Assembly (NCBI GenBank): GCA_016179055.1
Contig: JACOSC010000312.1
Span: forward strand, 1 to 52,097
Direction: 5' to 3'
Source of the DNA: Acidobacteriota bacterium
Lineage (GTDB): Bacteria; Acidobacteriota; UBA6911; JACOSC01
Length of the DNA stretch: 52,097 nt
The notes below the pieces were generated by a model, which saw only the letters and a program-made list of their open reading frames with translations, searched no databases and was not told where the DNA came from. This document shows, in pieces, positions 6,500-45,685 of this stretch; position 1 is the first letter of the stretch, and each line of letters starts with the position of its first letter. Made by a program: the position numbers and the translations under genes.

Positions 6500-7920
6500 T
6501 GGCCGTTAGATTTGCTAATTCGATGATCACCGGCGAAAAATTATCACCGCCCGCGGAACAACTGGTTACTCGATTTCAACAATTAATGGCGTTAGCTACC
6601 CGCAGCGGTTTCCGGGTTGATGGCCAGCCGCTGGCCCACGCTCTTTTATGTGAAGACGCATTGGCTCGCATGGAACAATGGGTTTTTAATGAAGTCGCCC
6701 TGACGTCTCTCAGCGAGAAAGCGACGCGCATCGAGTTCATTGTTGAAGGGCCGCTCCCGCCCGAGCTCTTGCGGGAATCGCCGCTTAAGCGGGAAACCAT
6801 CTTCAGGCAAACCATTGGTTATGAATTGTGCAAGGCTTGCCGTCTATGCATCGAAATCTGCCCCAAAGATGTTTATGAAGATGACGGCTTTGGCCGGCCG
6901 GACCGCTGGGATCGACGCGCGGAGGAATGCACCGGGCCGGAGTGTGGCCAGTGCGTATCGATTTGTCCGGAGCAAACCATCCACCTTGATCTGGCCAACC
7001 CAGCCTTCAGGTCCACTATTTTCATTTTGCTGGAGAATCCCTTTGCCCACGCGGCCGCCGCCGTGGCGGCGGAAGAAGATTTCTATGTCGCTAATCCGCT
7101 GGAAACCGGAAAACCGTTAACGCTTAAAGGGGAACTGAATCCGGTTGATCTGTTAGACTGCCATCGCGTTTTAAATGAATCGGCTTTTTACCCGGTCTTT
7201 GAAATCAACGGAACGGCTCAGCATTTGGTTGATTCACGCGCGCCCGAGGAGGATTTAGCCCGATGGGCACGGGAAAATCATCGCCATCCGCAATACGTGC
7301 TAGCCGCGGTGAGACTGCTCTACCAGCATTTGTCAAAGATTAATGGATTGAAAGAAGGCAAATATGCTGTCCATATTTTGGTCCATCGGATAATGGATGA
7401 GATCATTCACGGTGAGGTGGATGTAGAACGTCCGGGCGGCTTGGCCTTGCTTAAGCACATTACGAAAGAGGCCTACCTCCCGGAGCACTTCTTCGGCGCC
7501 AAGCGGCGGCCGATTGGCGGGCTCTTGCCCACAGGCACTTCAGCGGCCTGGAAAACGCCTTACGGGGAGCGCGTGCCCGTCTACGTCCGTCTCGAAAAAT
7601 GTTTAGGGCCGGAATGCGGCTTGTGCGTGACCCATTGTCCGGAAGGCGGCGGCGGAGAAACGGCTGCAGTGCGAATGGTTCCGCGTGTGCCGCTCGGCAC
7701 TATTCCTGCCCTGGTGCGCGGGATGAAAGTTTATCTGCTAAACCTGAGTGACGCCCATGCCATCTCCGCAGACCTGGAAGACCTGACCGGCCGAAGGCCG
7801 TTTGAGTTTGCCGTCAATACGGACTATTGCAAATCGTGCGGCACTTGTATGGCCTGTTGTCCGCACGGAGTCATCGACGGGGCCGTGAGAAGTTTCGATT
7901 TAAGGGAGCGCGTGGAGTGA
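6499..7920 (+). CDS. Four-cluster ferredoxin-like electron-transfer protein
   Basis: 473 residues with four Cys motifs in two pairs. Near the N-terminus are Cys111/114/117/121 (CKACRLCIEICP) and Cys144/149/152/156 (CTGPECGQCVSICP). Near the C-terminus are Cys368/373/376/380 (CLGPECGLCVTHCP) and Cys444/447/450/454 (CKSCGTCMACCP). Each motif can hold a [4Fe-4S] cluster. Residues 1-100 and ~200-360 match no domain I recognise. Its place between a KOR-like and a POR-like module, with overlapping starts and stops, argues that it passes electrons within or between the two enzymes. It is far longer than the usual ~100-residue delta subunit. The next gene begins at GTGA, overlapping its stop. Confidence 0.75.
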   Translation: MAVRFANSMITGEKLSPPAEQLVTRFQQLMALATRSGFRVDGQPLAHALLCEDALARMEQWVFNEVALTSLSEKATRIEFIVEGPLPPELLRESPLKRETIFRQTIGYELCKACRLCIEICPKDVYEDDGFGRPDRWDRRAEECTGPECGQCVSICPEQTIHLDLANPAFRSTIFILLENPFAHAAAAVAAEEDFYVANPLETGKPLTLKGELNPVDLLDCHRVLNESAFYPVFEINGTAQHLVDSRAPEEDLARWARENHRHPQYVLAAVRLLYQHLSKINGLKEGKYAVHILVHRIMDEIIHGEVDVERPGGLALLKHITKEAYLPEHFFGAKRRPIGGLLPTGTSAAWKTPYGERVPVYVRLEKCLGPECGLCVTHCPEGGGGETAAVRMVPRVPLGTIPALVRGMKVYLLNLSDAHAISADLEDLTGRRPFEFAVNTDYCKSCGTCMACCPHGVIDGAVRSFDLRERVE

Positions 7921-10181: not shown

Positions 10182-12967
10182 TGGTTACGGTTCGACGCAT
10201 CGATAGAAGCGCCTTCTTTTACTCTCCGGTCGCAACCCGCGCCGCAGCTCAGCCGGTGGCGCAAGCGATTCTCGATAAAAATCTGGATCTGCCTAAGGGA
10301 GTTTGCCTCTTCCTGACCGACGGTCCCTTGCCGGCTAAAGTGGGCAATCTTTCTGCAGATAAGCTGGCGGACTTGATCCCCTTGGAGAAGATTAATCTTG
10401 CCCAAGACATAGTGAACGCCATACATTATCTCGGGGCCGAAGTAGGCGAGGGAGATTATTATCTTCTAACTATAATGGAAGAGATAAGTCATCTGCCGCC
10501 GCTGACCCGGTTTTCACGGTTGCATTTTGAAGCTTTGGATGGACTCCGAAAAAAGGGAGTCAGGTTTTCTGATTTACCGGCAACGCTGGACGAAGCCCGC
10601 GACGGGCTGATTGAATGGTCCCAGCAACGAGTTCGTGTGGCGATCGAATATCTACTGGGAAATTTGGAGAAGACTATCAAGTTACTTCGCCTGTTGGGCG
10701 TCAGAAAAAAAACCATAAATGTGAGCTCGCTGTTTCACAACTTCCTCAGTGGTTTTTTTGAAGTGGATCTATCGACGGCCGAGCCCATGGATACTCTGCA
10801 AATTCTGGCGCGCGCCGCGGCCTTGCGAGAGCAGGGCGTCATTTATGAAATTTATCGACGCAGCGAATTCAATTGCGCATTGGCCGATCTTTCGCCGGGC
10901 GAGCTGGAAAGCGCGCTTTTGGAAACCAGCGATAGTTACGGAATCTCGGAAGAGATTTTCCGAAAATTTATGGCGATGAATTTTTCCACCGAAGCCCGGC
11001 GCCTGGCGGCAACTCCGGAGATTTCCATAGAAAAACTGATGACTTTTTTTAGATTTTCCGAGCGGGATGCTCAAATAGTTGCGGTTCCCACGGCGCCGGA
11101 CCTGGAAGACCCGCGGCGGTGGAAAGAGACTGAGCTCGGGAAAGCCTGTCGGGCCTTAAGCCGCGGAATTGATTGGTCGGAATTTTCAGCCGGAATTAGA
11201 GCGGCCGGGGATATCGAAGCGCATCGCCGCAACCGTGGCCTACGTGCGCAAGTGGGTCAGGTTAAACAGCTCGCCGAAGGCTTCTTGGTCACGCTGCCTG
11301 CCTTAAACGGCGAAAAGCCGGGCGCTGAGGGCATCCATGAGCTTTCCGAAGATGATCTCCTAGTTAGATTGTACGGCGTGGCCGTTCTGGAGAAGCGAAA
11401 CCTGGAAGAAGTGCTCGGTACGGCCATTAGTAGCCTGAATTTGATACGGCAACTGGAGAACCGTGAGGCCTCTGTGGCCTTGTATGAACTCCTGTCGGCG
11501 AGATTGAAAGGGGAGTCTTTGGTAGCCGTGCTGGGAGCGCAAGGTATCGTGCTGCGCAATTCGCCGATCGCCATGGCGATGGAAAAGCTGAAAGAGCTGA
11601 GCTACAAAGTTTCGTTTACGCTGGCCGTAGACGGCGGCCGGCAGTTGCCATTGACGTCAGCCGGGATTGACGACTTTCGCCGAGGGGTGCTCCTCATGAG
11701 TCGCAAGTCCTCTGCGCGGCATTCGCCGGAACAAGTGCTCACATCAATAATGGATAGGATTGTGCCTGAGATCGCTTTCTTGCCGGCTCTGGTGATTGAC
11801 CAAACCCAATCGCATGATTTGGGCCGAATCGTGGAGCTCGCCCTGGCCGGCATACCGCCGCGCTATCCGTTGCGACGACCTTGGGAAAGAATTGACTCGG
11901 ATCGTCTGGCCTTGCTGGGCAGCGGTCTTGAGCCCGGGATCCGCAACTGCCTGGGCTGTCCGGTAAATGTACTTTATGGTCATGTCGTCAAGACCGCGTT
12001 GGCGATGGGTTTCTTGGATATCATCACGTATGAAGCGACCGGCTGCTTCGAGGTCTATTCCGGCATATATCCCTATACCGGCAAGAAAATTCCTACCTTG
12101 CACGGAGTGTTCGGCGCGGCGCCGTCGGAAATGTTGGGCGGCCTGGCCGCCCGCAGAGCGAGGCTCCGCTATGCGCTAAAAAGCGCGCAGAAGAATGGCC
12201 AACCCGACCACGTGCTGCATCTGGGTTGGGGCGGAGACGGCGGCACGTTTGATATCGGCTTTGGAAATTTATCAGGCCTTTTCTCCCGCTTGCAGAGAAT
12301 CATGGGCGACGAATTGGATCAACATTTAACGCAGAGAGCCTTATACGTTTGCTATGACAATGAAGGCTATCAAAACACAGGAAACCAATATTCCGCCGCA
12401 ACGTCGCCCGGCGGAAATACTACCACCTATCCGCAAGGCGCGGCCCGCCCGGCCGGCAGCGATTTAAGGAAGAAACCGATAGTTGAAATTATCGCCGATC
12501 ATGGCGTTTCGCTTTCGGCGCGCCTGGGCATTCATCGCCCCGAGCATATCAGCCGCGTGGTTTCCCGCGCTCTCGCCGATGGCGACCGCGGGGCGTTTAT
12601 TCATTTCTTGCAACCCTGCACCACCGGTTGGAAATTCACGGCCGATAATATTGCCTATGACCTGGCCTGGCTGGCCGAAGCCGGCGGTCTTTTTACTCCG
12701 GTGACCATCGAACATGGCGTGGCCTACATGGAAGTTTATCCGACCGGCCGCAATCCCGAGCGCGCCTTTATGGAGATGCAAGCGCGCTTCAAACATTTGT
12801 TGAGCAGCGGACCGGTCGCCAAGAACTATCTGGATCGCGTCATGGGATATTATCGGACGGAATGGGAGAGAGTTTTGCGGCTGACCGGCTTTGCCGGCGA
12901 AATCCGCGGCGCCCACCGACTAGCCTACCTAGAACCCGAGCACCGTCGGCCGAAGATTAATGTCTAA
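10181..12967 (+). CDS. POR-like beta subunit with a ~590-residue novel N-terminal region
   Basis: 928 residues, about three times a normal beta subunit. Residues ~585-928 are a TPP-binding beta domain: NCLGCPVNV (Cys590, Cys593), HLGWGGDGGTFDIGFG (GDG near 686), then YVCYDNEGYQNTGNQYSAAT, the TPP pyrophosphate and metal motif of pyruvate:ferredoxin oxidoreductases. ATSPGG and PCTTGW segments also fit. Residues 1-585 are mostly helical by eye, with no Cys motifs or membrane spans, and match nothing I know. They follow the start directly and the frame is clean, so the fusion looks genuine. It is the last gene of the operon; no convincing terminator follows. Confidence 0.8.
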   Translation: MVTVRRIDRSAFFYSPVATRAAAQPVAQAILDKNLDLPKGVCLFLTDGPLPAKVGNLSADKLADLIPLEKINLAQDIVNAIHYLGAEVGEGDYYLLTIMEEISHLPPLTRFSRLHFEALDGLRKKGVRFSDLPATLDEARDGLIEWSQQRVRVAIEYLLGNLEKTIKLLRLLGVRKKTINVSSLFHNFLSGFFEVDLSTAEPMDTLQILARAAALREQGVIYEIYRRSEFNCALADLSPGELESALLETSDSYGISEEIFRKFMAMNFSTEARRLAATPEISIEKLMTFFRFSERDAQIVAVPTAPDLEDPRRWKETELGKACRALSRGIDWSEFSAGIRAAGDIEAHRRNRGLRAQVGQVKQLAEGFLVTLPALNGEKPGAEGIHELSEDDLLVRLYGVAVLEKRNLEEVLGTAISSLNLIRQLENREASVALYELLSARLKGESLVAVLGAQGIVLRNSPIAMAMEKLKELSYKVSFTLAVDGGRQLPLTSAGIDDFRRGVLLMSRKSSARHSPEQVLTSIMDRIVPEIAFLPALVIDQTQSHDLGRIVELALAGIPPRYPLRRPWERIDSDRLALLGSGLEPGIRNCLGCPVNVLYGHVVKTALAMGFLDIITYEATGCFEVYSGIYPYTGKKIPTLHGVFGAAPSEMLGGLAARRARLRYALKSAQKNGQPDHVLHLGWGGDGGTFDIGFGNLSGLFSRLQRIMGDELDQHLTQRALYVCYDNEGYQNTGNQYSAATSPGGNTTTYPQGAARPAGSDLRKKPIVEIIADHGVSLSARLGIHRPEHISRVVSRALADGDRGAFIHFLQPCTTGWKFTADNIAYDLAWLAEAGGLFTPVTIEHGVAYMEVYPTGRNPERAFMEMQARFKHLLSSGPVAKNYLDRVMGYYRTEWERVLRLTGFAGEIRGAHRLAYLEPEHRRPKINV

Positions 12968-13792: not shown

Positions 13793-16700
13793 TTATAAGA
13801 CGAAGAATCTTCCAAAACAATACCAGCTTATAACTCGCTTCTTCCATTTTCTCTCCTCGTCGGTTTTAGGATGAACTTTTACCGCATCTTGGCACAATTT
13901 CAAATCGCAAGCACTGGAAAGCGCATTGAATGGAAGTAGGCTGCTCACGCCAATTGAACAAGTCTTATCGTAACATTTATCATGGGCCCTACATGCTGCA
14001 TCGAGGCCTCTATCATCAAAATCAAAAGGGCCTAAATCTTTGTGGGTATTTCGATCCTTATTATTTCCCGGCCCGCACCAATTACCATACCATGGTGCTA
14101 GACCATACGGATCGCTCTCATTAATGGGGTTGTTCTCTACATAAGCATAAAAGTTGATACCACCATTGAAGCTGATTGGGTCCTCGCTGATAAACCTTCC
14201 CACCTGCGGGTCATAATACCGCGCCCTGTAATAATACAACCCACTTTCCGGATCGAACTCGCGGGAGGTGTAGGTATATGGATTAGCGCTGTCGCCTGTT
14301 TGCAGCATGACACTGCCGAAGGCGTCGTAAACATACGACTGAACCACCTCGCCGGCCGCGTTTGTAGTCTGCATGATGCTGCCCAGACCGTCGGGGTGGT
14401 AAAAGGAGCTCTCACCGTCCCGATCCATGATCAACGGCTCGTCGATGCCTGGACCGTGCGTATAGCGGGCGAGGAGATTGTTGCTCCCATCCAATTCCAG
14501 GAGTATGGTTTGGTTGTCGTAAATGTACTTGGTGATCGCGCCGTTGACGTTCTTTTGGATCCTTCGCCCGAGCCCGTCATATTTGTACTCGGCAAAACCG
14601 CCGCCCGGCAAGTCGATCCGAGTAAGCTGATTCTCGCTGTCGTAACTCAGGCGGGTGAGCGCGCCGGTGGAGCGATCTTGTTTGGAGATGAGATTGCCGT
14701 TGGCATCGTATTGGTAAACAAAGTTGTCGTCTTGCAATAACCGGTTGGCGGCCTCGTAGGCGTAGGTTGCCGATAAATGCGAGTCCAGCCGATTTCCAAC
14801 GGGATCATAGCTGAACGATTCTTCAGGATTGAAGTCTTGCGGATGCGTGGCATGGATCAAACGATGGAGACCATCGTAATCGAAGCGGTTCAAGCCCTCT
14901 AAATCGGTGCGGGTGATTCGATTCCCCACTCTGTCATAGGTGTACTGGAAACTTGAAATCGGCGTGGCCTGACGACGATTAGCCAATGAAGCCAATCGAC
15001 TGGCCGCATCGTAAGTGTAGGTTACCGACGTGTTGTTGGGCAAGTTGAGCTGGGTGCGTCGCGACAGAGCGTCGTAGGTAAAGGTGATGTCCGCCGGCTG
15101 TGCGGGACCGTCACAGGATGGCGTGGAGGGCATTCTGGTTAAACGACTCAGCGCATCGTAACAGTATCTAGTTTCGCCAGGCTGTCCGGTTATGGCCATC
15201 CGTGTGCGATTGCCATTTTTATCGTAACGGTAAGTAATCGACCGGGCCGGCAAGATGGCGCCGCCGGTCGTTGCGCCCGTCAATTGATCCGCAAGATAGC
15301 TCATTTCCAAGGCGCTCTCCGTTACGGCGCCTACTTTTTTCTCTACCCGTGCCAGATGGCCCGCCGGGTCATAGCCATATTCAAAGGTCACCGTGGGAGA
15401 ACCGACCCATGTCTTCCGCGCCAGTCGATTTATCCCATCGTATACATACGTGATCCGCCCGCCTCTCGCGTCGGTCGTCTCGACGAGATTCCCATTGCGA
15501 TCGTAGCCAAAGGTCTTGCTTTGTTCGCGCGGATTCGTCACTCTCTTCAAACGCCCCATTTCATCGTACTCAAACCTCGTAATTTGCCTCTTAGCATCCT
15601 CAACCAACTTGAGCAATCCCGCTGACCCACCGCAACAACCGGGTTCATATTCGTAGCGGGTCACTCCTTCGGCCGCATCCGTGACGCTCGTGAGCCGGTT
15701 CATCGGATCGTACTCGAACAGGGTCTCCCGGCCTTCCGCGTCCCGGCTCTTTATCACATTCCCGGCCTCGTCATATTCCAGACAGGTCTCACCCCCCAGC
15801 GGGTCTCGTGAACAAGTGCGGCGCCCTCTATCATCGTAGGAAAAAGTTGTGGGATTTCCGATGGCATCCGTTGTCGAGGTCAGCAATCCCCGACTATCGT
15901 AGGTCATTGTAGTTATGTTGCCGGCGGCATCTCTGGTTTCAATAAGGTTGCATCCGGGGTCATCGTAGGTAAACGTCGTCACATTACCCATGGGGTCGCG
16001 TAAGCTTGCCACCTGATTACATCTGGGATCGTAGGTATACGTGGTCACGGCATCGATTGCGCTATTCCGCGAGGTCAATAGATTGCCTTGCGTATCGTAG
16101 GTCATTGTGATTTCAACCCCGTCCGGCCGTCTGATTCTTGTGGGGTTGCTATGTTGATCTCTATCAATTAGTGTCTCTCGGTTGAGGGCATCCTTGATAA
16201 ATGTGGCCGCTCCAAATCTATCGTTCTTGAAAGTGGTTCTATTGCTGCGGCCGTCAGTAAAACGGCTGTTGACATCCGCCGTTCTTATGAGCGGCGCCGG
16301 CCGCTCCCGGGTTCCTAGGCCGCTGGCCGGATCTACCAGACCCGCCAGTTGACTCATGCTAACTTCTCTCGTGATCCTTTCCGGTGCAGGCAGCTCCATC
16401 GGGACCGTTGACCGTACAAAACGACCGGCAAAATTGTATTCATAGCGGGTCGTAGCAACACGAGCATCCGTCCGCAACGTCAGGCGACGATCGCTATCGT
16501 AATCAAATCGTACCACCGCGCCGCTGGGATCCGTCACCCGCTTGAGATTCCCGCCCTCGATGGTAAACGTCGTCACCCGGCCGGCCGGGTCCTGCACGCT
16601 GGACAACCGGCCGTTGCCGTCGTAGCTGAGCTGCGTCACCAGTCCTACCGGATCGGTGATCGAAATCAGCCGCCCATTGTCATCGTAATCATATTGCGTC

Positions 16701-19153
16701 GTATTCCCATTGCGATCGACGGTCGAAACATGCAGTCCTTCAGCATTGAAATTTATCTTCGTCCCATCTTTCATCGTTCTCGTAAACGTTCCGTCCGCAT
16801 TACGCACCAACTCAGAAAACTCCCCTTCAGGCGCGCCTCGCGAAGATAAAAATACCGATAACCATTGAGAGGCCTCACTCGCCACAGCTAAATCCAGCAT
16901 TCCATCCCGATTGAAATCTCCTACTACAACTGACGCATTATAAAGATTAAGATCAGCTGAAAAATTTCTTGCTACACCAAAGTTTCCTCTGCCATCCCCC
17001 AGCAAGATCGATACATTGTTTGAGTTCTGATTAGCCACAGCCAAATCCAGATTACCATCGCGATTGAAATCTCCTCCTACCACATCCGCAACGGCATTTC
17101 CAACTGGAAAATTCCTGGCTGGCCGGAAGGCTCCATCACCAACTCCTAGTAGGATCGAGACGTTGTTCGAGCCCCCGTTAGCCACAGCCAAATCCAGATT
17201 ACCATCGCGATTGAAATCTCCTACCGTAACAGAACCAGGATTACTTCCAACTGGAAAATTTCTTGCTGCACCAAAGCTGCCTCTACCATTTCCTAGCAAG
17301 ATCGATACATTGTTCGAGCCCCCGTTAGCCACAGCCAAGTCCAGCTTTCCGTCCCGATTGAAATCTCCTACTACCACACCCGTAGGAGAATTTCCAACTG
17401 GAAAGTTCCCGGCTGGCTGAAAGCTTCCATCTCCATTCCCAACCAGTATCGATACAGTATTTGAGTAAAGATTAGCCACAGCCAAGTCCAGCTTTCCATC
17501 CCGATTGAAATCTCCTACTACGACCGAGATAGGGAGGGTTCCAACTGAAAAATTCCTTGGTGGCTGAAAGCTTACATCTCCACTCGCCACCAGTATCGAT
17601 ACATTGTTTGAGAAAAGATTAGCCACAGCCAAATCCAGATTCCCATCCCGGTTAAAATCGTTTGCTACAACCGACCGACTGCCACTTCCACCTGAATAAG
17701 GATGCCATGCTCTGCCAAAGTTTCCTCGGCCATCTCCCAGCAGGACCGATACGTTGTTTGATCCCCAATTAGCCACGGCTACGTCTATATTTCCATCTTG
17801 ATAAAAATCGCCTACAGCAACTGAGCTGGGTTGAGTCCCAACACCAAAAATTCTTGGCGGGCAAAAGTCTCTGAGACCATTTCCCAACAGGATAGAGACG
17901 CTATTCGAATTAGCCAACGATACCACAATGTCCAGATTGCCGTCTTTATTAAAATCCGCAACCGCGATTGATCTAGGACCATTGCCGCCTGCGTTGCGGT
18001 CGATTCTTACTGGGAATTCTCCTCTGCCATTCCCCCACAGGATGGATACATTATTCGAGTCCCAGCGCCAATTTGCCGTAGCTATATCCAGATTACCATC
18101 GTTATCGAAATCCCCTGTAATGATCCTAATGGGAGCAAGCCCAACAGCAAAGTTTCTTGCCGGTTCAAAGCCGCCGGCACCATTGCCCAGCAGGACCGAC
18201 ACGTTATTTGATCCACCATTAGCTGTAGCCAAATCAAGCTTTCCGTCTCGATTAAAATCCGCTGTTATAACATACCCGGGCGAAGTCCCAACAGGAAAAT
18301 TCCTCACGGACTTGAAAGTTCCATCACCAACTCCCAAGAGAACCGACACGTCGTTGGATGTGCCATTCGTTACGGCTAAATCTGGTATATTATCTCCATC
18401 GAAATCCCCGACGGCGATAGAATTGGGTCCAGTCCCCACCGCAGGCCTTGCTGGGAGTTCTCTGAAAGTTCCATCACCATTCCCCAGAAGAATCGAGACC
18501 GTGGCAGGTATAGAGTGCGTCACCGCTAAATCGAGTTTCCCATCCCGATTGAAATCCTCGATGGCGACGGCTGTGTGGTAATTTGCCACGCGGATGATTC
18601 GCGGCTCACCGAAACCGCCGGTCCGATCTCCCAGCAGAATGGCCACGGTATCTGAGCCGTTGTTCGTCATCGCTAAATCCAGCATACGGTCGCCGTTGAA
18701 ATCGCCTGTGACAATAGAGTACGGATTGCTGCCGCCGGATGGGAAGTCTCTTCGCACTTTAAAGAGCGGGGCATCGGTCTCGATAGAAAAGACCTTGGCC
18801 GTTCCATCGCCTTCGGTTATTGCGGCTGAAACGCCGCCAGGGTCTAGGTGGAGCCGCTGCAATCCCTCCAAGCCCCAGCCGGCGCCGAAGGGGCTGTTGC
18901 GTTGATTGTTAATCAACAGTTGATCGGCCATGGCGGCGCTGTACCGATTTTGATAGTTGTTGTAGTTATTGAAAGTAATCATCGCATACGGATAAACGCC
19001 CGTGGCCAGGTTATTCGCATCAAACTGCATAGCTACGCGGTAAGGCGTATTCAGCTCGGGAGGTGGATTATAAAATACTTCGCCCCGCAGCTCTCTGTTT
19101 ACGATCAGTCGAGTGGAGAGCGTTTGCGGAATGGCCACATTCCTTCTTAACAT
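13793..19153 (-). CDS. Rhs/YD-repeat giant surface protein with FG-GAP repeats and PLA2-like tip
   Basis: 1786 residues in this frame. After a short lead-in there are 13 tandem ~55-residue FG-GAP/VCBS-like repeats (residues ~130-790, consensus VGDFNRDGKLDLAVANGGSN then NVSILLGNG). About 850 residues of YD repeats (YDxxGRL...) follow, then the Rhs core RYYDPQVGRFISEDPISF. The last ~100 residues (about 14098-13796) change character: WCGPGNN, DFDDRGLDAACRAHDKCYD and CDLKLC match the Ca-loop and the C-x3-HD-x-C catalytic helix of phospholipase A2. This suggests a secreted or surface Rhs effector whose variable tip hydrolyses phospholipids. No immunity gene follows. The N-terminus lies in other frames (see 19146-19486). 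Confidence 0.85.
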   Translation of the reverse strand: MLRRNVAIPQTLSTRLIVNRELRGEVFYNPPPELNTPYRVAMQFDANNLATGVYPYAMITFNNYNNYQNRYSAAMADQLLINNQRNSPFGAGWGLEGLQRLHLDPGGVSAAITEGDGTAKVFSIETDAPLFKVRRDFPSGGSNPYSIVTGDFNGDRMLDLAMTNNGSDTVAILLGDRTGGFGEPRIIRVANYHTAVAIEDFNRDGKLDLAVTHSIPATVSILLGNGDGTFRELPARPAVGTGPNSIAVGDFDGDNIPDLAVTNGTSNDVSVLLGVGDGTFKSVRNFPVGTSPGYVITADFNRDGKLDLATANGGSNNVSVLLGNGAGGFEPARNFAVGLAPIRIITGDFDNDGNLDIATANWRWDSNNVSILWGNGRGEFPVRIDRNAGGNGPRSIAVADFNKDGNLDIVVSLANSNSVSILLGNGLRDFCPPRIFGVGTQPSSVAVGDFYQDGNIDVAVANWGSNNVSVLLGDGRGNFGRAWHPYSGGSGSRSVVANDFNRDGNLDLAVANLFSNNVSILVASGDVSFQPPRNFSVGTLPISVVVGDFNRDGKLDLAVANLYSNTVSILVGNGDGSFQPAGNFPVGNSPTGVVVGDFNRDGKLDLAVANGGSNNVSILLGNGRGSFGAARNFPVGSNPGSVTVGDFNRDGNLDLAVANGGSNNVSILLGVGDGAFRPARNFPVGNAVADVVGGDFNRDGNLDLAVANQNSNNVSILLGDGRGNFGVARNFSADLNLYNASVVVGDFNRDGMLDLAVASEASQWLSVFLSSRGAPEGEFSELVRNADGTFTRTMKDGTKINFNAEGLHVSTVDRNGNTTQYDYDDNGRLISITDPVGLVTQLSYDGNGRLSSVQDPAGRVTTFTIEGGNLKRVTDPSGAVVRFDYDSDRRLTLRTDARVATTRYEYNFAGRFVRSTVPMELPAPERITREVSMSQLAGLVDPASGLGTRERPAPLIRTADVNSRFTDGRSNRTTFKNDRFGAATFIKDALNRETLIDRDQHSNPTRIRRPDGVEITMTYDTQGNLLTSRNSAIDAVTTYTYDPRCNQVASLRDPMGNVTTFTYDDPGCNLIETRDAAGNITTMTYDSRGLLTSTTDAIGNPTTFSYDDRGRRTCSRDPLGGETCLEYDEAGNVIKSRDAEGRETLFEYDPMNRLTSVTDAAEGVTRYEYEPGCCGGSAGLLKLVEDAKRQITRFEYDEMGRLKRVTNPREQSKTFGYDRNGNLVETTDARGGRITYVYDGINRLARKTWVGSPTVTFEYGYDPAGHLARVEKKVGAVTESALEMSYLADQLTGATTGGAILPARSITYRYDKNGNRTRMAITGQPGETRYCYDALSRLTRMPSTPSCDGPAQPADITFTYDALSRRTQLNLPNNTSVTYTYDAASRLASLANRRQATPISSFQYTYDRVGNRITRTDLEGLNRFDYDGLHRLIHATHPQDFNPEESFSYDPVGNRLDSHLSATYAYEAANRLLQDDNFVYQYDANGNLISKQDRSTGALTRLSYDSENQLTRIDLPGGGFAEYKYDGLGRRIQKNVNGAITKYIYDNQTILLELDGSNNLLARYTHGPGIDEPLIMDRDGESSFYHPDGLGSIMQTTNAAGEVVQSYVYDAFGSVMLQTGDSANPYTYTSREFDPESGLYYYRARYYDPQVGRFISEDPISFNGGINFYAYVENNPINESDPYGLAPWYGNWCGPGNNKDRNTHKDLGPFDFDDRGLDAACRAHDKCYDKTCSIGVSSLLPFNALSSACDLKLCQDAVKVHPKTDEERKWKKRVISWYCFGRFFVL

Positions 19154-31149: not shown

Positions 31150-31276
31150 AGTGCTTCCCCGCTACATGCGCCATTTCCTCTGTCCTCGTTGGGCCAGTCC
31201 CCATCGATCTGCGCGCCTACAGTCCGCCCTGTGTATGTCCATCAGCAGCAAGGCGCGGAACGCGCGGCTACCTTGT

Positions 31277-31906
31277 TTACCGCGGTTGTTCCGTGGATTG
31301 GAACAGGCTATTGATACGCGAGATCATAACATCAATAGCGATTTTATTGCGTCCGCCCTCGGGAAAAATAATATCCGCATAGCGCTTGCTGGGCTCCACA
31401 AACTCCAAGTGCATGGGGCGGACCGTTTCCATGTATTGCTCAATGACGGATTCCAAACTTCGGCCGCGCTCGCGCGTATCCCGTTGCAACCGGCGGATAA
31501 ACCGCACATCGGGATCGGTATCCACAAAGATCTTGATGTCCATCATGGACCGCAGTTCGCCGTTTTCGAAGATCAATATGCCTTCAATAATAATGATCTC
31601 TTGCGGATTGATCCGCGCGGTCTCGGCCATGCGATTGTGCGTATGAAAATTGTAAGCCGGTTGATCGATGGCAAGACCCTCGCGCAATTGACGAACGTGT
31701 TCCATGAGCAAGGGCCAATCGAAGGCGTCCGGATGATCGAAATTGATTTGTGCGCGGGCATTGAGCGGAAGATCGCTGCGTTCGCGGTAATAAGAATCCT
31801 GATGAAGGATAAGCGCTCGGTCGGGGCCAATCTGTCGGAGGATTTCATCGGCCATCGTGGTCTTGCCCGAACCGGTACCGCCGCATAATCCAATTATCAA
31901 AGGCAT
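31277..31906 (-). CDS. udk: Uridine kinase
   Basis: 209 residues, usual Udk length. It phosphorylates uridine or cytidine in pyrimidine salvage. P-loop GLCGGTGSGKTT at 6-17, then LHQDSYYRE, NFDHPDAFDWPLL, YNFHTHNRM, IIIEGILIFENGELRSMMDI and RDTRERGRSLESVIEQYMET, all characteristic of the family. It heads the minus-strand group ending in the LLM oxidoreductase. Confidence 0.93.
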   Translation of the reverse strand: MPLIIGLCGGTGSGKTTMADEILRQIGPDRALILHQDSYYRERSDLPLNARAQINFDHPDAFDWPLLMEHVRQLREGLAIDQPAYNFHTHNRMAETARINPQEIIIIEGILIFENGELRSMMDIKIFVDTDPDVRFIRRLQRDTRERGRSLESVIEQYMETVRPMHLEFVEPSKRYADIIFPEGGRNKIAIDVMISRINSLFQSTEQPR

Positions 31907-32440
31907 ACCCTAATTCCTCAAGGCTATCCACCAGCCGCAGGGCGCGCCGCGGGTCAGCCCCACGGCGAGATTCCTGCCACACTTTCGGCCACAAGATAGC
32001 ATAGTTGTAAGTCAAAAGCAATCCATATCGGGCATCCATACCGGTCATCCAAAATCGGTAACATACCCGGGGTGCTTGCCGAATCGTATATCGGGAGTGT
32101 GATGAATTTGTGCTGAAACGAGCAAAATATTTTCTGGAGGTAGCTTTCATGCTTTATTCATGCGGATAGTTGAGGGTCTTCCAGCGTCACCAACTTTTTG
32201 AATTTTACTGGGTTGGTTCCGGCTCATCCGGGTTAGGGCTATTCTGACCAGTGACCACTGACGACGGACATGCACCAGATTCAGTATCGAAAGCGAATCG
32301 ATCGCAAAAAAAGACCCCTATCATTTTATGCGGGGGATCTGATATATTATGAGGATTAGTCACTCGGCGGCGTTGCGGCCGCTATAGCGCTGATGGGGAC
32401 TTGGAAAGTTGCTATACTAAATATGACACGGAGGCTAATT
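31907..32440. other. Intergenic region
   Basis: Contains the third GGTTCCGGCTCATCCGGG motif (32215-32237) and a GACCCC/GGGGATC hairpin near 32311-32338. A TATATT box near 32340 could be the -10 for the following gene. An overlapping minus-strand frame (32150-31845) is not convincing. Confidence 0.4.
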
Positions 32441-33517
32441 ATGCAGAGATTCGCACGATGGGGGAAATGGGCAAGCCTGTTTACATGGCTGCTCCTCACC
32501 CACATTATTTTTGCGCAACAACCGTCTACACTTTCCGGCTCGGATCAAACCTTGATCCCGACAAAGCCCGGCCCGCCACCCAAGGCCGTCTTCAAGGAGA
32601 TGCGGCACGCCTTCGGCGAAGTCCAGCGGGGCGAAAGCGTATCACATATCTTCATAGTTAAGAATGAAGGTGAAGGGCCGTTGGCCATCACCAACGTTGC
32701 CCCTGGCTGAGGGTGCACGGTAAGCGACTTTGATAAAGTCGTACCTCCCGGGAAGGAGGGGAAAATTACGCTGGTCATAAAGACGGATGGGTTGCGCGGG
32801 GAAGTGCATAAGTCGGCCACCGTACAATCAAACGATCCGACCAATCCGATGGCTACATTGGAAATGACCGGCAAGGTCATTGCCCTGGTAGATGTACAGC
32901 CGCAGGATAAGATATTCTTTAACTCTTACCGCAATGAACCGCAGAAGAAAGAGGTTTCCATAATAAACAACGACAAGAAGCCTTTGAACATCAAGAAGGT
33001 CGAGAACAGCATCAAGAACGTGTCCACGGAGTTACAGACGGTTAAGGCGGGGAAAGAATATAAGTTGATTATCACGGCCGATACCAGCGCGCTCGGTAAG
33101 TCCGATGGAACCATAACCGTGCGGACGGATCATGCGAAGTTTGCGGCTATTCCTATTACGGTTAGTCTATGGGTCCGGTCGCAAGTGGGGGCCTTCCCCA
33201 CCGAAGTTCGCTTTGGCAATCTGAAACTGGAGGCCTTAAAGACTGCGCCGGGAGCTGTAACTTCGCGCTCGGTGATCGTGCGCAGACAAAAAGACGCCAA
33301 AGATTTCAAGATTGAGAAAGCGATGAGCGACGCCCCCATGTTCAAAGTCGAACTCGAACCCCTTAATACCGGTCCGGCGGGTGGTTACCGTGTAAAGATT
33401 CAGTTAGACCTGAATAAGGTCAAGCCCGGCGACACCCTGGAGTCCTTCATAACCGTGAAAACCAACGACAAGGAAACACCTGAGTTGAAGATTCCTGTCC
33501 GCGGAAAAATTGTGTGA
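32441..33517 (+). CDS. DUF1573-family secreted protein, candidate selenoprotein (in-frame TGA at Cys position)
   Basis: The ATG at 32441 has CGGAGG 7 nt upstream and opens a signal peptide (residues 1-25, ...FTWLLLTHIIFA). The 358-codon frame contains one TGA, at codon 90 (32708-32710), and then runs 268 codons without a stop. Context is ITNVAPG-(TGA)-GCTVSDFDKVVPPGKEGK; DUF1573 proteins have Cys-Gly-Cys-Thr here, so TGA replaces the first conserved Cys and Cys92 remains. A hairpin with a loop G lies 21 nt downstream (next entry). DUF1573 domains are Ig-like (ASH-type) modules; two more follow (residues ~150-240 and ~245-355). Alternatives are a Cys-to-stop mutation or assembly error. Recoding is an inference; the domain call is firmer. 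Confidence 0.65.
32711..32749 (+). promoter_or_regulatory. SECIS-like hairpin immediately after the in-frame TGA
   Basis: GGTA (32719-32722) pairs with TACC (32742-32745) and CGACTTT (32725-32731) with AAAGTCG (32735-32741). A two-base AG bulge lies on the 5' side and the apical loop is GAT. The loop begins with G, 21 nt after the UGA. Bacterial SECIS elements are known to be short stem-loops just inside the reading frame, with a G early in a small apical loop and ~16-37 nt spacing from UGA, which this satisfies. Confidence 0.5.
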
Positions 33518-33550
33518 CTTGCCTTTCATGATGATAGTCACGGCGCCTAC

Positions 33551-33583
33551 GGTATGGACAACCGCCAACAGGTTGTCCATACC
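33551..33583. terminator. Perfect 13-bp hairpin downstream of the DUF1573 gene
   Basis: GGTATGGACAACC and GGTTGTCCATACC surround a 7-nt loop. There is no T-tract, so it may protect the transcript 3' end or be a repeat rather than an intrinsic terminator. Confidence 0.4.
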
Positions 33584-33649
33584 GAAAGGCGGCGTAACGG
33601 CCAAACATTTCTACCTTTCAAACACATTACCCAAGCTTTTCGCTAAACC

Positions 33650-34384: not shown

Positions 34385-34574
34385 TAAGCATGTAATTCAA
34401 TTCCGCTGATAGGCGTGTTAAGCAGCAAGACGTTTGAATAGGAGTTGTTCATGCCCCGTGTGGGGTACCCAGACGAATGAAAACAGAACCGCCTGCGGTG
34501 GCCGAGACGGATCTCACTCAGTCGCTATCGCAATGGGTACCGTTAGTCTGGAGTTATTTTTAAAGGAGATAACT

Positions 34575-35552
34575 ATGGTAAGACTCCGTATTGTCGCTGG
34601 AAGTTTTGTATTGTTGTTAGCGTATAGCGTTTCCCTCTTTGCCGAAGTTCCCTACACCCGACATTTTGGTCCGATCATCGACCGGTATCAAGCCTTCGAT
34701 CCACAGCGGACCTGCAGTCCGACGGAAAAACCCGGGGCCATCGACTTCAGACATATTGTCCTTGGCACATACACCAGGACGCGTAACCTGGGGATCATAC
34801 GGGCATGCAGTGTCGGCGGGACTAGCGAGCATAAGGAAGGCCGCGCTTGGGATTGGGGCGTCAGGGTAACTGTGCCGGCCGAGCGGCGTAATGCCGATGA
34901 CCTCATCGGTTGGCTGTTGCAAAGGGATCCTCACGGCAATGCCAATGCCCGATTGCGACGGTTTGGGTTGATGTACATGATATGGAATCGCCGCATATGG
35001 GCCTCATACCGCGCCGGCGAAGGCTGGCGGAGCTATAGCGGTCCCAATCCACATACCGATCATGTTCATTTTAGTTTCGGATGGCCGGGCGCCCGTAGAC
35101 AAACGACGTGGTGGCATCCCGAGCGCACCGGAACACCCGTGTTGGGGCCCGGCACGGAAGAATGGGTAGCCGATGAGTCCGCTGAGGACGTCGAAATAGA
35201 AGGACCTTTCCCTGGAACAACCTCGCCGGATCGTGGTCGGAACGGCGTGGAAGAGGCCGCTTTGCGTCTGGCTATTGAACAGCAGTTGGTCCCTATACGC
35301 GACGGCGAAATCGATGATACGACGCGGTATTGTCCCCCTAACAGCCTCGTTGTGTCTTGGGACATGGACGTGGAAGCTTTTAAGCACGGCGGGAACATTG
35401 CTCCTATGGGGCCGGAGCCGGACGAAAATACGAATGAGGTCACCGGCATTGTCTATTGTAAAGGCTTCGATTACGCTTATGTCGGGTTTGAAGCCTGGTG
35501 GGATGAAGACAATGGCGTATGGATGGTACTGAACACACCGACGTGTGACTAA
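34575..35552 (+). CDS. Secreted protein with ARB-07466-like (putative peptidoglycan peptidase) domain
   Basis: The ATG at 34575 is chosen for AAGGAG 8 nt upstream and a clear signal peptide (MVRLRIVAGSFVLLLAYSVS, cleavage near LFA|EV). Residues ~40-195 contain GTSEHKEGRAWDWGV, WLLQRDPHGNANARLRRFGL, MYMIWNRRIWASYRAGEGWR and NPHTDHVHFSFGW. This matches the ARB-07466-like C-terminal domain, related to M15/VanY-type zinc peptidases, with His in SEHKEG and HTDHVHFS as likely ligands. The remaining ~130 residues are acidic and unrecognised, ending in WWDEDNGVWMVLNTPTCD. It is probably extracytoplasmic; the enzymatic role is inferred. Confidence 0.75.
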   Translation: MVRLRIVAGSFVLLLAYSVSLFAEVPYTRHFGPIIDRYQAFDPQRTCSPTEKPGAIDFRHIVLGTYTRTRNLGIIRACSVGGTSEHKEGRAWDWGVRVTVPAERRNADDLIGWLLQRDPHGNANARLRRFGLMYMIWNRRIWASYRAGEGWRSYSGPNPHTDHVHFSFGWPGARRQTTWWHPERTGTPVLGPGTEEWVADESAEDVEIEGPFPGTTSPDRGRNGVEEAALRLAIEQQLVPIRDGEIDDTTRYCPPNSLVVSWDMDVEAFKHGGNIAPMGPEPDENTNEVTGIVYCKGFDYAYVGFEAWWDEDNGVWMVLNTPTCD

Positions 35553-35762
35553 TCCGTCACAAGTCTGATGAGGTTATTGACGTCGGCCATGTTTGGTTCC
35601 GATAGCCGTTTCGTTGGAATTATTTTGCCACATAAATAAATGCCTTGGCCTGTCGGCGCCACGAGCGGCGGGCCCATTTTCCATCAATATTTAGTGTATT
35701 CTTTGTGGAGTTTCCCAGGTCTCTTTGGGGTGCGTACGACGAGTGCATATAGCACCGACTCG

Positions 35763-35852
35763 CCTGGGAGCGCCCCGACTACCGTCGGGGCAAGAGTGGA
35801 CGCGGTTCGCGACGATACTCGCCGGCAAAGATGCCGGCGCTCCCAGGTATTT
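35763..35852. repeat. Inverted repeat with nested hairpins before the S8 protease
   Basis: CCTGGGAGCGCC and GGCGCTCCCAGG form the outer arms, enclosing GCCCCGACTACCGTCGGGGC and ending with GCCGGCAAAGATGCCGGC. It lies 15 nt before the start of the protease gene, so it should fold in its 5' leader. Confidence 0.55.
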
Positions 35853-35867
35853 TTATGGGAGGTAGCC

Positions 35868-38084
35868 ATGGCTCGATGGGCGGCCCGTACTCTCCGCCGT
35901 GCTTTTTTTACCCTTATACTGCTGACTACAATCGCCCAATTTCTTCCAGCCTTGACGCTGACGGCAGGTATATTGGAGCTTCAAAAAGACGGAAGTGGGT
36001 ACGCTCTCGGCATGGAAGGCATTGGCCGTTTCTACGCTACCACGTATGATATTCAAAATGCGCGACTCATTCAAGTGCCTAATACGACCATGCGTGTGAT
36101 CCTGTGGGAGGAGAAACGGACGGAAGGCCCCTCGACTCCTTTTTTTGCCATTAGTCTGGATGGGCAACGAATCGTTCGTGTGCAGCAAGCCGCCTATGAT
36201 CTCTTGTTGCGCTATGCGCAGTTCGATCCACTGATGAATTCTTCGTCAGTGGATGCCCTATTGGCGGCCCGGGAGCCGGCAAATGAAAGCACCTTTATCG
36301 TTCAGTTCGTCACCCAGCCCCTGGAGGAGTACCGCCAACAGATAGAGACTCTCGGTGGAACACTATATAAGTATTTGGCAAACTATGCCTATGTTGTAAG
36401 GATGAATCCCGCCGCCAAGGAGCAAGTGTCCAACCTGCCGTTTGTGCGTTGGGTGGGACCTTATCATCCCGCTTATCGATTAGAAGAATCCTTGATCGCC
36501 GAATTAACGCAAGATGGGGATAGCCTCCCTGCGAGTCGGTATAGCATACAGGTGTTCGAGCGTGGGAAGGCCCAGCAGGATCGAGTGGCTATGCGGATCG
36601 AAGCTATGGGTGGAACCATTAATAAGATCAGCCCGCAGGGATTCCGGCTCGAAGCCACAGTAACACGCGACGCGCTATTGGAAGTGGCTCACATGGACGA
36701 AGTGCAGTTCATCGATCGCTGGACTGCGCCCGAGCCCGATGTAACAACGGCCAGGGAAATCGGTGGGGCAGATTTCCTTGAATCCGTGGCCGGGTTCACC
36801 GGAACCGGCGTACGCGGCGAGGTTATGGACGCCGGCATACGCGCAACACATCAGGACTTTCAATCTCGGCCCATTATTATCCATGGCGCGAACCCCGGTG
36901 TCGACAGTCATGGAACCAGCACCACCGGCATCATTTTCGGCGACGGTCGCGCGGATATGAGAGGGCGCGGCTTTCTGCCTACCGGACAAGGCATTTTCGC
37001 ATCGTATCTGCGTCTCTCCAATCGCTACCAACATACGGCCGAACTCTTGGAACCCCCTTACCAGGCCCTATTCCAATCCAATAGTTGGGGAGGCGGGCTG
37101 ACCAGGCAGTACACAACGGTTTCCGCCGACATGGATGACATTTTGTTCAACAATGATATCATCATCGCGCAGTCACAGAGCAATGCCGGCAACCAAATGT
37201 CTCGCCCGGAAGCGTGGGCCAAGAATATCGTGTCGGTCGGCGGGATATTGCACCGCGGCACAGTGACTATGGATGACGACTGTTGGTGTAGCCGTGGCAG
37301 CATCGGACCCGCGGCCGATGGCCGTATTAAGCCGGATCTGGCGCATTTTTATGACATGAACTTCACCCCCTCTGGACGCAGCGATACCAGTTACACGCCT
37401 TCATTTGGCGGCACCAGCGCGGCCACGCCGATTGTGGCAGGACATTTTGGCCTTTTTTTTGAAATGTGGCACAACCAAATTTTCGGCAATCCCGGCGGGG
37501 AGACAGTTTTTGACAGCCGTCCACATATGGCGACTGCAAAGGCCATGATCATCAATACCGCCAAGCAGTGGACTTTCACAGGCCCGCAGCATGATTTGAC
37601 CCGCGTGCATCAGGGCTGGGGATTGCCGGATCTGGCCAACCTTTATAATTTGCGTGACAAGATTTTTGTCGTCGACCAAACCGACATTCTGCTTCCCTTC
37701 GAAACTAGAACCTATCGATTTCAATCACAAGGCGGCGGAACGCCGCTACGGGCCACATTGGTTTATTCCGATCCCAGTGGAACCACCTCTTCAACGCAGC
37801 ATCGCATCAATAAGCTGAACTTGAAAGTGACCTCTCCAACCGCGGTCGTTTATTGGGGAAATAACGGCCTGATGAGCGGCCTATGGTCAACGCCGGCCGG
37901 TGATCCCGACACCAAGAATACGACGGAAAACGTATTTATTAATTCACCGGACAATGGGACATGGACCTTTGAGGTGATCGCCGCTGAGATAAACGAAGAT
38001 AGTCACCTCGAGACACCGGAAATTGACGCTGACTACGCCTTGGTGATCAGCGGCATCGTGCCGAGCCCGGCCGGACGGAGATAA
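35868..38084 (+). CDS. Secreted S8 (subtilisin-like) serine protease
   Basis: The ATG at 35868 follows GGGAGG and starts a signal peptide (...FFTLILLTTIAQFLPALTLT); the longer frame upstream is the inverted repeat. 738 residues. Residues ~140-290 hold two I9-like prodomain segments (FIVQFVTQPLEEYRQQIETL, RYSIQVFERGKAQQD). The catalytic triad is Asp321 (EVMDAGIRATHQDF), His348 (SHGTSTTGI) and Ser517 (FGGTSAATPIVAGH); DAG in place of the common DSG/DTG is a minor variation. The last ~150 residues form a beta-rich domain (TYRFQSQGGGTPLRATLVYS, DNGTWTFEVIAAE) like the P/PPC domains of exported subtilases. Likely extracellular or periplasmic. Confidence 0.88.
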   Translation: MARWAARTLRRAFFTLILLTTIAQFLPALTLTAGILELQKDGSGYALGMEGIGRFYATTYDIQNARLIQVPNTTMRVILWEEKRTEGPSTPFFAISLDGQRIVRVQQAAYDLLLRYAQFDPLMNSSSVDALLAAREPANESTFIVQFVTQPLEEYRQQIETLGGTLYKYLANYAYVVRMNPAAKEQVSNLPFVRWVGPYHPAYRLEESLIAELTQDGDSLPASRYSIQVFERGKAQQDRVAMRIEAMGGTINKISPQGFRLEATVTRDALLEVAHMDEVQFIDRWTAPEPDVTTAREIGGADFLESVAGFTGTGVRGEVMDAGIRATHQDFQSRPIIIHGANPGVDSHGTSTTGIIFGDGRADMRGRGFLPTGQGIFASYLRLSNRYQHTAELLEPPYQALFQSNSWGGGLTRQYTTVSADMDDILFNNDIIIAQSQSNAGNQMSRPEAWAKNIVSVGGILHRGTVTMDDDCWCSRGSIGPAADGRIKPDLAHFYDMNFTPSGRSDTSYTPSFGGTSAATPIVAGHFGLFFEMWHNQIFGNPGGETVFDSRPHMATAKAMIINTAKQWTFTGPQHDLTRVHQGWGLPDLANLYNLRDKIFVVDQTDILLPFETRTYRFQSQGGGTPLRATLVYSDPSGTTSSTQHRINKLNLKVTSPTAVVYWGNNGLMSGLWSTPAGDPDTKNTTENVFINSPDNGTWTFEVIAAEINEDSHLETPEIDADYALVISGIVPSPAGRR

Positions 38085-43271: not shown

Positions 43272-43378
43272 TACGATTACGGATTTCCGATGGTGGAATT
43301 TCGCGGTAGTGTTGCTTTTGCACGGAATAACTCCGCCATCCGCCGTCAAAAAAATCCGCCCTGAGACTTTGCTTGGGT

Positions 43379-45685
43379 ATGAAGAAAATTGATCGTTATA
43401 TAATTAGTGAGCTGCTGCCGCCCTTCCTTGTCTGCTTGCTGGTATTTTCGTTTATAGTGTTTGCGCAAGAGCTGGGACGGCTGGTGCAACTCTTAATTTC
43501 AAGGGATGCCGGATGGCCGGTGGCCTTGAAGCTGGCGTTTTCCATTTTACCCAGAATCTTGATTTTTACGCTGCCGTTGTCTTTCTTGGTGGGCATCATC
43601 GTTGGATTTAGCCGGCTCTCCTCCGATAGTGAGATAATCGCGCTGCGGGCCAGCGGATTCCATTTGTTCTATATCTTACGACCGGCCATCATTCTATCGC
43701 TGTTGGTGTGGCTGGTCAGCTTGTCGCTGTCGCTCTATTGGCTCCCCCTGGGCAACGCTCGGCTACGCGCGCTGACCTATGAAATCGGTATGACCCAGGC
43801 CACGTCAGCCATACAGCCGAGAGTCTTCACGGAGGATTTGCCCAACACGGTCCTCTATATTGAATCGCTCTCGGAAAACCGCTCCCGCTGGCAAAATATT
43901 TTCCTGGCCGATACCGGCGACAAGACCGATCAAAAAATTATTCTGGCCCAGCGGGGCCGCTTACTCATGGAACCCTTTACCCGCAAGGTCCAAGCGCACC
44001 TGGAAAACGGCCTTATCTACAAAGTAGATATGGAACGCAGCGATAAAGATAACGTTAGCCGCTTTGAGACGACGGAACTTCCGATCGCCAGTGAGGACGC
44101 GCCGGTGCAGAGGCCGCGTGAGCGCAGAACCGAAGAGTTGACGATACGGCAATTATGGCAGCACATACGCGCGCGCACGGCGCAAGCCCGTGAGATGCAG
44201 GTGGAGTTGAATCTTCGCTTGGCGCTGGCCTTCTCCGTCTGGGCATTCTGTTTGATGGGCGTTCCGCTCGGCATTTTCACGCGCAAAGGCGGACGCGCCA
44301 CCGGATTTGTCGTCGGAATTCTGTTGATCATGCTGTTTTATATATTGCTGTTTGCCGGCAAACGGCTCGCCGTCGCCGGCACATGGTCGCCGGTTCTGGG
44401 CGTATGGACGGCCGATATTGTCTTCTTCATGCTTGGCCTTTTGCTTATGGTCAAGAGCAATCAGGACCTGAACATTATCCGCCATATTTCAGCGTCGCAC
44501 ATCTGGGCAGGGTTGCGCGCCCAGCTCGCGCCATGGATTGCCGCCCGGCGGCGACGAACGGCGGAGAATGCCGTGCCGCGGACGGCGACAAGCTTTCAGA
44601 TCATGCGCGTGGCGAGCCTGTACGTTACACGCAGCTTCCTGGGTTTCTTTCTGCTCTCGCTCGGCGCCTGTCTGGCGTTGTTCATTGTGTTCACGCTTTT
44701 CGAATTGATTGACGATATCGTGCGCAATAATATACCGGTGCTGCTGATGCTGCTTTATTTTATTTATTTGACGCCGCAGATACTGGTCGTTGTAGTCCCA
44801 CTTTCCATTCTCTTGGGCGCCTTGATTAGTTACGGCATTCTTGAAAAATCCAATCAGATGATGGCGTTTAAGGCGGGCGGCATCAGTGTGTATCGGCTGA
44901 CGGCCCCGGTGATCATCGCCGCCTTGGGCATCTCCGGGGTTATGTATTCCATACAGGAATACGTTCTTCCCGATGCCAATCAGCGGCAGGACAGCCTGCG
45001 CCACGTTATTAAGGGCCGGCCGCCGCAGACTACTTTTCGGCCCGAGCGAAAGTGGACCTTTGGCGACGGCAACCGAATTTTCAATTATGCCTACTTTGAT
45101 CCGCGGCAAAATCGGTTCGGCGAATTCAATTTGTACGAAGTGGACGTGACGCGGCAAATTATCCACCGGCGGATTTACGGCTTGCGCGCGCAGTGTGAGA
45201 GCGGGCGCGGCTGGATCTTGGAAAAGGGCTGGGTGCGCGATTTTGGCACGGATACATTTTATCGTTTTGAGAAAGAGAAGTTTAATTTCCCCGAGTCGGC
45301 CGAGTACTTTAAGGAAGGGTTGATGGATCCAAAAGAGTCCAGCAAGATGACCTATGCCGAGCTACGCGATTATATTGCCCGGCTGCGCCGCAGCGGCGTC
45401 GACACGGCTATGTTGAAGATGGAGCTCTACCGCAAGGTGTCATTTCCGCTATCCGCGCTGGTCATGGTATTGCTGGCGATCCCGTTCTCTTTTTTGATTG
45501 GCAAGCGCGGAGCGTTTCATGGGATTGCCGCCAGTGTAGTTATCGGCATTGTTTACTGGGGAACCATGAACCTCTTCGAAGCGCTCGGGTCTTACGGACT
45601 ACTCTCTCCGCTGTTGGCGGCCTGGGCGCCGAATATTTTGTATAGCGCTGTCGGTCTCTACTCATTATTTACCATTCGCACCTGA
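43379..45685 (+). CDS. lptFG: Fused LptF-LptG lipopolysaccharide export permease
   Basis: 769 residues, twice the usual length, with two YjgP/YjgQ repeats. Residues 1-~375 begin MKKIDRYIISELLPPFLVCL and residues ~400-769 begin MRVASLYVTRSFLGFFLLSL; each repeat has three N-terminal membrane segments, a periplasmic beta-jellyroll part and three C-terminal membrane segments. LptF and LptG normally form a heterodimer with LptB2 that drives LPS from the inner membrane to the LptC bridge, so one chain can supply both. Domain junction is a basic linker (IAARRRRTAENAVPRTA). ATG at 43379 is chosen over a TTG at 43373. Confidence 0.88.
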   Translation: MKKIDRYIISELLPPFLVCLLVFSFIVFAQELGRLVQLLISRDAGWPVALKLAFSILPRILIFTLPLSFLVGIIVGFSRLSSDSEIIALRASGFHLFYILRPAIILSLLVWLVSLSLSLYWLPLGNARLRALTYEIGMTQATSAIQPRVFTEDLPNTVLYIESLSENRSRWQNIFLADTGDKTDQKIILAQRGRLLMEPFTRKVQAHLENGLIYKVDMERSDKDNVSRFETTELPIASEDAPVQRPRERRTEELTIRQLWQHIRARTAQAREMQVELNLRLALAFSVWAFCLMGVPLGIFTRKGGRATGFVVGILLIMLFYILLFAGKRLAVAGTWSPVLGVWTADIVFFMLGLLLMVKSNQDLNIIRHISASHIWAGLRAQLAPWIAARRRRTAENAVPRTATSFQIMRVASLYVTRSFLGFFLLSLGACLALFIVFTLFELIDDIVRNNIPVLLMLLYFIYLTPQILVVVVPLSILLGALISYGILEKSNQMMAFKAGGISVYRLTAPVIIAALGISGVMYSIQEYVLPDANQRQDSLRHVIKGRPPQTTFRPERKWTFGDGNRIFNYAYFDPRQNRFGEFNLYEVDVTRQIIHRRIYGLRAQCESGRGWILEKGWVRDFGTDTFYRFEKEKFNFPESAEYFKEGLMDPKESSKMTYAELRDYIARLRRSGVDTAMLKMELYRKVSFPLSALVMVLLAIPFSFLIGKRGAFHGIAASVVIGIVYWGTMNLFEALGSYGLLSPLLAAWAPNILYSAVGLYSLFTIRT

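Follow-up and report, generated by a model that had tools for sequence, protein, structure and literature searches.

An in-frame TGA very probably read as selenocysteine in an OS_HP2/DUF1573-family gene of an Acidobacteriota bacterium

The gene at 32441..33517 on the plus strand of the window (the whole 52,097-nt stretch analysed here, contig JACOSC010000312.1 of an Acidobacteriota bacterium) almost certainly encodes a member of the known OS_HP2/DUF1573 family. Its codon 90 is a TGA at a column where relatives carry Cys, and the source genome has matches to all four selenocysteine (Sec) genes; the codon is therefore very probably read as Sec. According to the reading that we favour on balance, the gene encodes an OS_HP2 protein that is predicted to be exported and whose Sec-Gly-Cys (UGC) motif would be a redox pair. 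The internal TGA would be decoded at a hairpin lying shortly 3′ of it, through SelB and tRNA-Sec. The resulting pair, carried by an exported Ig-like protein, would cycle between a selenol/thiol and a selenenylsulfide form, with a thioredoxin-like protein of the periplasm (TlpA/ResA type) as its probable partner.

The gene comprises 358 codons plus a stop and is preceded by a likely ribosome-binding site (GGAGG, 32430..32434, plus strand), with the ATG at 32441 lying 6 nt further on. The only stops in the frame 32441-33517 are at codons 90 and 359, which bears out the initial annotation's description of a 358-codon frame holding a single internal TGA. This TGA (32708..32710, plus strand), in the context A-P-G-(TGA)-G-C-T, opens the likely Sec-Gly-Cys motif, as judged from the sequence and from the same column in relatives; the second residue of the pair is Cys-92 (TGC, 32714..32716, plus strand), which is Cys in 34/34 of the UGC places described below. 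The 268 codons 3′ of the TGA are open and align with relatives to the end. The terminator (33515..33517, plus strand) is also a TGA, so the source genome uses TGA as a stop too, in this one instance. Directly 3′ of the gene, at 33550-33584, a perfect inverted repeat of 14 bp encloses a loop of 7 nt; it may represent either a terminator or a repeat element.

The mechanical ORF list cuts the gene in two (32393-32710 and 32792-33517), and the protein database entry P0001 holds only a 222-residue piece starting at residue 137 of the protein. The three nearest database relatives (73, 65 and 65 % identity in the alignment) likewise start 3′ of residue 90, as would follow from a TGA at that column in these relatives too, a point drawn from the protein entries alone.

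Membership of the family was assessed with domain profiles. A Pfam profile search matched PF07610 (DUF1573) across residues 51-146 (E value 1.8e-27; 32591..32878, plus strand), and NF041425, the NCBIfam model for 'OS_HP2 family (seleno)protein', matched residues 52-146 with 126.7 bits, above its curated cut-off of 100. The protein thus combines an NF041425 score over the cut-off with a UxC motif inside the pfam07610 domain, and NF041425 was matched at E ≤ 0.001 by every one of the 34 UGC proteins.

These relatives come from a sample of the phylum comprising 297 genomes, the source genome included, of which 147 contain a match to the window protein (this tally and those of tRNA-Sec matches were made by eye). 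The matches listed include 36 stop-bearing places, counting the gene itself, and all were read along with stop-free ones. TGA occupies the residue-90 column in 34 of these 36 places, distributed over 33 genomes with that of the window gene, and is followed in each case (34/34) by Gly-Cys; beyond the window gene, this amounts to 33 places in 32 other genomes. The two remaining stop-bearing places (G104 and G196) have Cys at this column. No second in-frame TGA was found in the matched stretches of the 34 UGC places; for G250, two TGA codons are listed in a longer stretch and one in a shorter stretch, and the gene ends at the next TGA. The UGC form is accordingly present in at least 33/297 genomes of the sample.

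The initial annotation had called for TGA/Cys pairs at codon 90 to be sought in homologues, and they were found: the 34 UGC places stand against 35 compared places with Cys (34 CGC and one CVC), while four further rows (L019, L025, L026 and L028) have other residues. The compared rows were picked, consisting of all 36 listed stop-bearing places, the best-scoring stop-free ones and Cys domains found alongside, so the 34:35 ratio says nothing of prevalence. Among the 35 Cys places are L068 and L084 (from stop-bearing rows), the Cys domains that lie beside Sec ones in L046 and L073, two domains of L035 and the Atribacterota locus L054. In a tree of 68 domains, computed with L054 left out and the Sec/Cys column masked, eight changes between Sec and Cys are needed and at least five are forced by well-supported branches, although the tree rests on only 109 columns and many of its forks are unresolved. 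Both forms occur in one genome at L073, where they are encoded by adjacent genes, and in one chain at L046:1489-2865:-, where a CGC-bearing DUF1573 domain comes first in a tandem pair and is followed by one bearing U(TGA)GC.

The source genome (5.3 Mb, 95 % complete) was searched for the Sec machinery, another check proposed at the outset, and all four components were matched over their curated cut-offs: selA (560.4 bits), selB (389.6 bits), the tRNA-Sec gene selC (77.2 bits) and selD (394.6 bits). The selD match, which lies outside the window (L048, G000:C262:997-1923:-), itself contains one in-frame TGA; SelD of this genome is thus probably a selenoprotein, and the organism probably makes at least one selenoprotein besides the DUF1573 protein. 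Across the 33 UGC genomes, 28 have a tRNA-Sec match at an E value of 1.1e-11 or better. The other five (G100, G185, G203, G016 and G030) have only weak matches: in a laxer search, tRNA-Sec came barely over the cut-off in two, and selB exceeds its cut-off in all five. With tRNA-Sec over the cut-off in 229/297 genomes of the sample, finding it in the UGC ones is weak as a test and discriminates little.

Downstream of the internal TGA lies a SECIS-like hairpin (32724..32742, plus strand), in which 32724-32731 pairs with 32735-32742 around the loop GAT (32732-32734). The 8-bp stem is uninterrupted, with seven Watson-Crick pairs and one G-U pair, and the loop G is 21 nt after the TGA. The initial annotation had described this element as a stem of 7+4 bp; the stem, the GAT loop and the spacing of the loop G stand, whereas the extra 4 bp are absent from the minimum-energy structure. 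Taken alone, the hairpin is within what chance would give, both by shuffling (z −1.35; 19/200 shuffles of a 58-nt stretch fold as well) and by random synonymous recoding (a stem of equal or greater length in 495/5000 recodings). Rfam returned no match at E ≤ 1 in 32600-32900.

Across the family, however, the SECIS-like hairpin accompanies TGA rather than Cys. Using a stem scan made for this analysis in place of a published SECIS predictor (longest stem of at least 6 bp, loop of 3-8 nt), we detected a stem in 33/34 TGA places and 2/35 Cys places (Mann-Whitney p = 3e-12, a value that overstates the case because the rows are related to one another), and the loops of the 33 UGC stems begin 18-21 nt after the TGA. 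A second definition, which asked for an energy of −4 kcal/mol or lower and for a 3-14 nt loop having G as its first or second base, gave 29/34 UGC and 3/35 Cys places. In a fixed register, which not all UGC genes use, the pair 20/28 is A-T, T-G, C-G or G-C in 27/34 UGC places and pairs in 4/35 Cys places, and the pair 19/29 is formed in 19/34 and 4/35, respectively. Only the middle of the stem discriminates, since pairing at the outer positions 13/35 and 14/34 and at the innermost 22/26 is no rarer in Cys places than in UGC places. The textbook rule for bacterial SECIS elements places a G in a small apical loop; under the longest-stem definition, G is among the first two loop bases in only 8/33 UGC hairpins, suggesting that this rule is not general in the OS_HP2 family.

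With 20 aligned sequences as input, the predicted structure is almost entirely beta (mean pLDDT 85.4, pTM 0.61), and we read the model as three Ig-like domains in a row; given the pTM, the arrangement of the domains is less sure than the domains themselves. Residues 1-27 and 29-41 have pLDDT values under 50. The UGC-bearing DUF1573 domain is predicted to be all-beta over residues 49-147, with block-mean pLDDT values of 87-96 over 51-150, and residue 92 starts a modelled strand (92-97), so that Sec-90 and Cys-92 would lie where a strand of the first Ig-like domain begins. Structure comparison gave chains of the ciliary central apparatus, cadherins and titin as the closest solved folds, with low whole-chain TM-scores (0.19-0.39 normalised by the query, among the best 50 listed). 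A thioredoxin fold around the Sec was considered and rejected, as the model is all-beta and its nearest solved folds are Ig-like or cadherin-like. A search of solved structures with the single protein sequence returned nothing below an E value of 0.42, while a profile search returned Hydin-type chains, other axonemal chains and 2qsv. By a crude count, 32/34 UGC proteins have a hydrophobic run within their first 50 residues, and the window protein is likewise predicted to be exported via its hydrophobic N-terminus.

No shared partner gene emerged among the nearest neighbours in the relatives: no family was found in more than four of the 65 nearest neighbours scanned (of 66 listed), among the best 25 of 72 families. 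For the immediate neighbours of the window gene (31151-31888 and 34434-35552), Pfam gave nothing at E ≤ 0.001. The second ORF on its downstream side, 35640-38084, matches Peptidase_S8 (subtilase-type). A table of iron-responsive genes in PMC10434189 places a BACON protein, an S8 peptidase and a DUF1573 protein next to one another in Bacteroides thetaiotaomicron (BT0211-13); the proximity of an S8 peptidase to a DUF1573 gene in both organisms may be due to chance. Elsewhere, the window contains genes with pyruvate/2-oxoacid:ferredoxin oxidoreductase and ferredoxin domains, apparently in two sets side by side (3783-12967), a 1786-aa ORF on the minus strand (13793-19153) and a single 770-aa ORF (43373-45685) that contains two stretches of LptF_LptG and may be an LptF-LptG fusion.

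As to what the motif does, redox turnover of the Sec/Cys pair is suggested by the motif together with two fusions. One of the 34 UGC proteins has a redoxin/thioredoxin-type match, and by its length (531 aa) and CGYC motif this is the protein of L067. In that locus (L067:2872-4464:+), a UGC-bearing DUF1573 domain precedes a C-terminal part that is thioredoxin-like and contains CGYC, making the protein a possible selenoprotein with a built-in reductase. The second fusion was seen in P0015, one of the 21 Cys homologues found, in which the domain is joined to a glutathione-peroxidase/redoxin domain.

The main rival to this mechanism accepts that Sec is decoded and takes Sec-Gly-Cys, like Cys-Gly-Cys, as a metal(loid)-binding site or a structural bridge in place of a catalytic redox pair. 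UGC/CGC may just as well bind metal: metals are commonly bound by a bare C-x-C on a loop, the domain is predicted to be an Ig-like beta-sandwich and not a thioredoxin fold, and no family recurs in more than four of the 65 neighbours scanned. The repeated exchange of Sec and Cys points instead to redox use, as do the fusions to thioredoxin-like and peroxidase domains, although these are few, and to our knowledge Sec is rarely retained for metal binding alone. We therefore regard a metal or structural role as unlikely, though it carries more weight than any other alternative, and retain the redox pair as the preferred reading. Extended to the family, that reading would make OS_HP2 an exported seleno-oxidoreductase with an Ig-like beta-sandwich as its scaffold in place of a thioredoxin fold, common in the phylum, with at least five Sec/Cys swaps and sometimes fused to its own thioredoxin-like reductase; we offer this generalization tentatively, as something short of an even call.

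Two further alternatives concern the codon itself. A true stop, arising from a recent pseudogene or a sequencing error, would fit the observation of one stop in one assembly and a hairpin that is, by itself, within chance. Against this, the frame stays open for 268 codons past the stop and can be aligned with relatives right up to its end, matches exist to all four Sec genes, and 32 other genomes contain between them 33 further places with TGA at this column. We rejected this explanation on account of that recurrence and consider it very improbable. Reassignment of TGA as a codon for Trp or Gly, for which the read-through of TGA in both the DUF1573 frame and the selD match might speak, can be dismissed with still more assurance, as the DUF1573 gene itself terminates in TGA where its relatives end, the internal TGA falls at a Cys column and all four Sec genes are matched. 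The selenocysteine reading put forward in the initial annotation is hence upheld by the four Sec genes, the TGA/Cys pairs and the family-wide association with a stem.

Reading the TGA as Sec explains why this gene gets read in pieces, as in P0001, which begins at residue 137. The Sec form of OS_HP2 was found in at least 33/297 genomes of the sample of one phylum, with Sec and Cys swapped several times, and the availability of a Sec form, a Cys form and fusions to thioredoxin-like and peroxidase domains provides a direct way to test the role of DUF1573.

The initial annotation had hinted that a DUF1573 selenoprotein had not been described. This does not hold: OS_HP2 is listed in 2008 with pfam07610, the motif UxC and two sequences (PMC2398784), 'DUF1573 domain-containing protein' appears with the motif UGC in tables of two reviews (PMC9312934, 2022; PMC13188914, 2026), each citing Zhang and Gladyshev 2007, and NF041425 is a curated model. 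As OS_HP2 is already in the literature, the window gene is a new member and not a new kind of selenoprotein. The sections of these three papers that deal with the family state no function for a DUF1573 selenoprotein, and DUF1573 was not found in the portions of PMC12013277 (deep-Sep) consulted.

Compared with the OS_HP2 model (NF041425), the window protein shares a match over the cut-off across residues 52-146, and nothing was seen that would exclude membership; the model covers one domain (98 positions), whereas the window protein continues with apparently two more Ig-like domains. With the tabulated DUF1573 selenoproteins (PMC9312934, PMC13188914) it shares PF07610 and UGC, a likeness drawn from the table descriptions only. 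The ocean survey of 2008, in the part that lists the family, counted two OS_HP2 sequences (PMC2398784), compared with the 33 or more genomes in our sample of 297. The ASH/HYDIN-type Ig-like domains resemble the protein in profile (PF22544 and Hydin chains) and predicted fold, but belong to scaffold proteins of cilia. We know of no Sec/Cys motif in them. The Cys DUF1573 proteins (CGCT) share the domain, and their first Cys aligns with the TGA; they differ in having Cys in place of Sec and in the hairpin, a stem of at least 6 bp accompanying 2/35 of their places compared with 33/34 TGA places.
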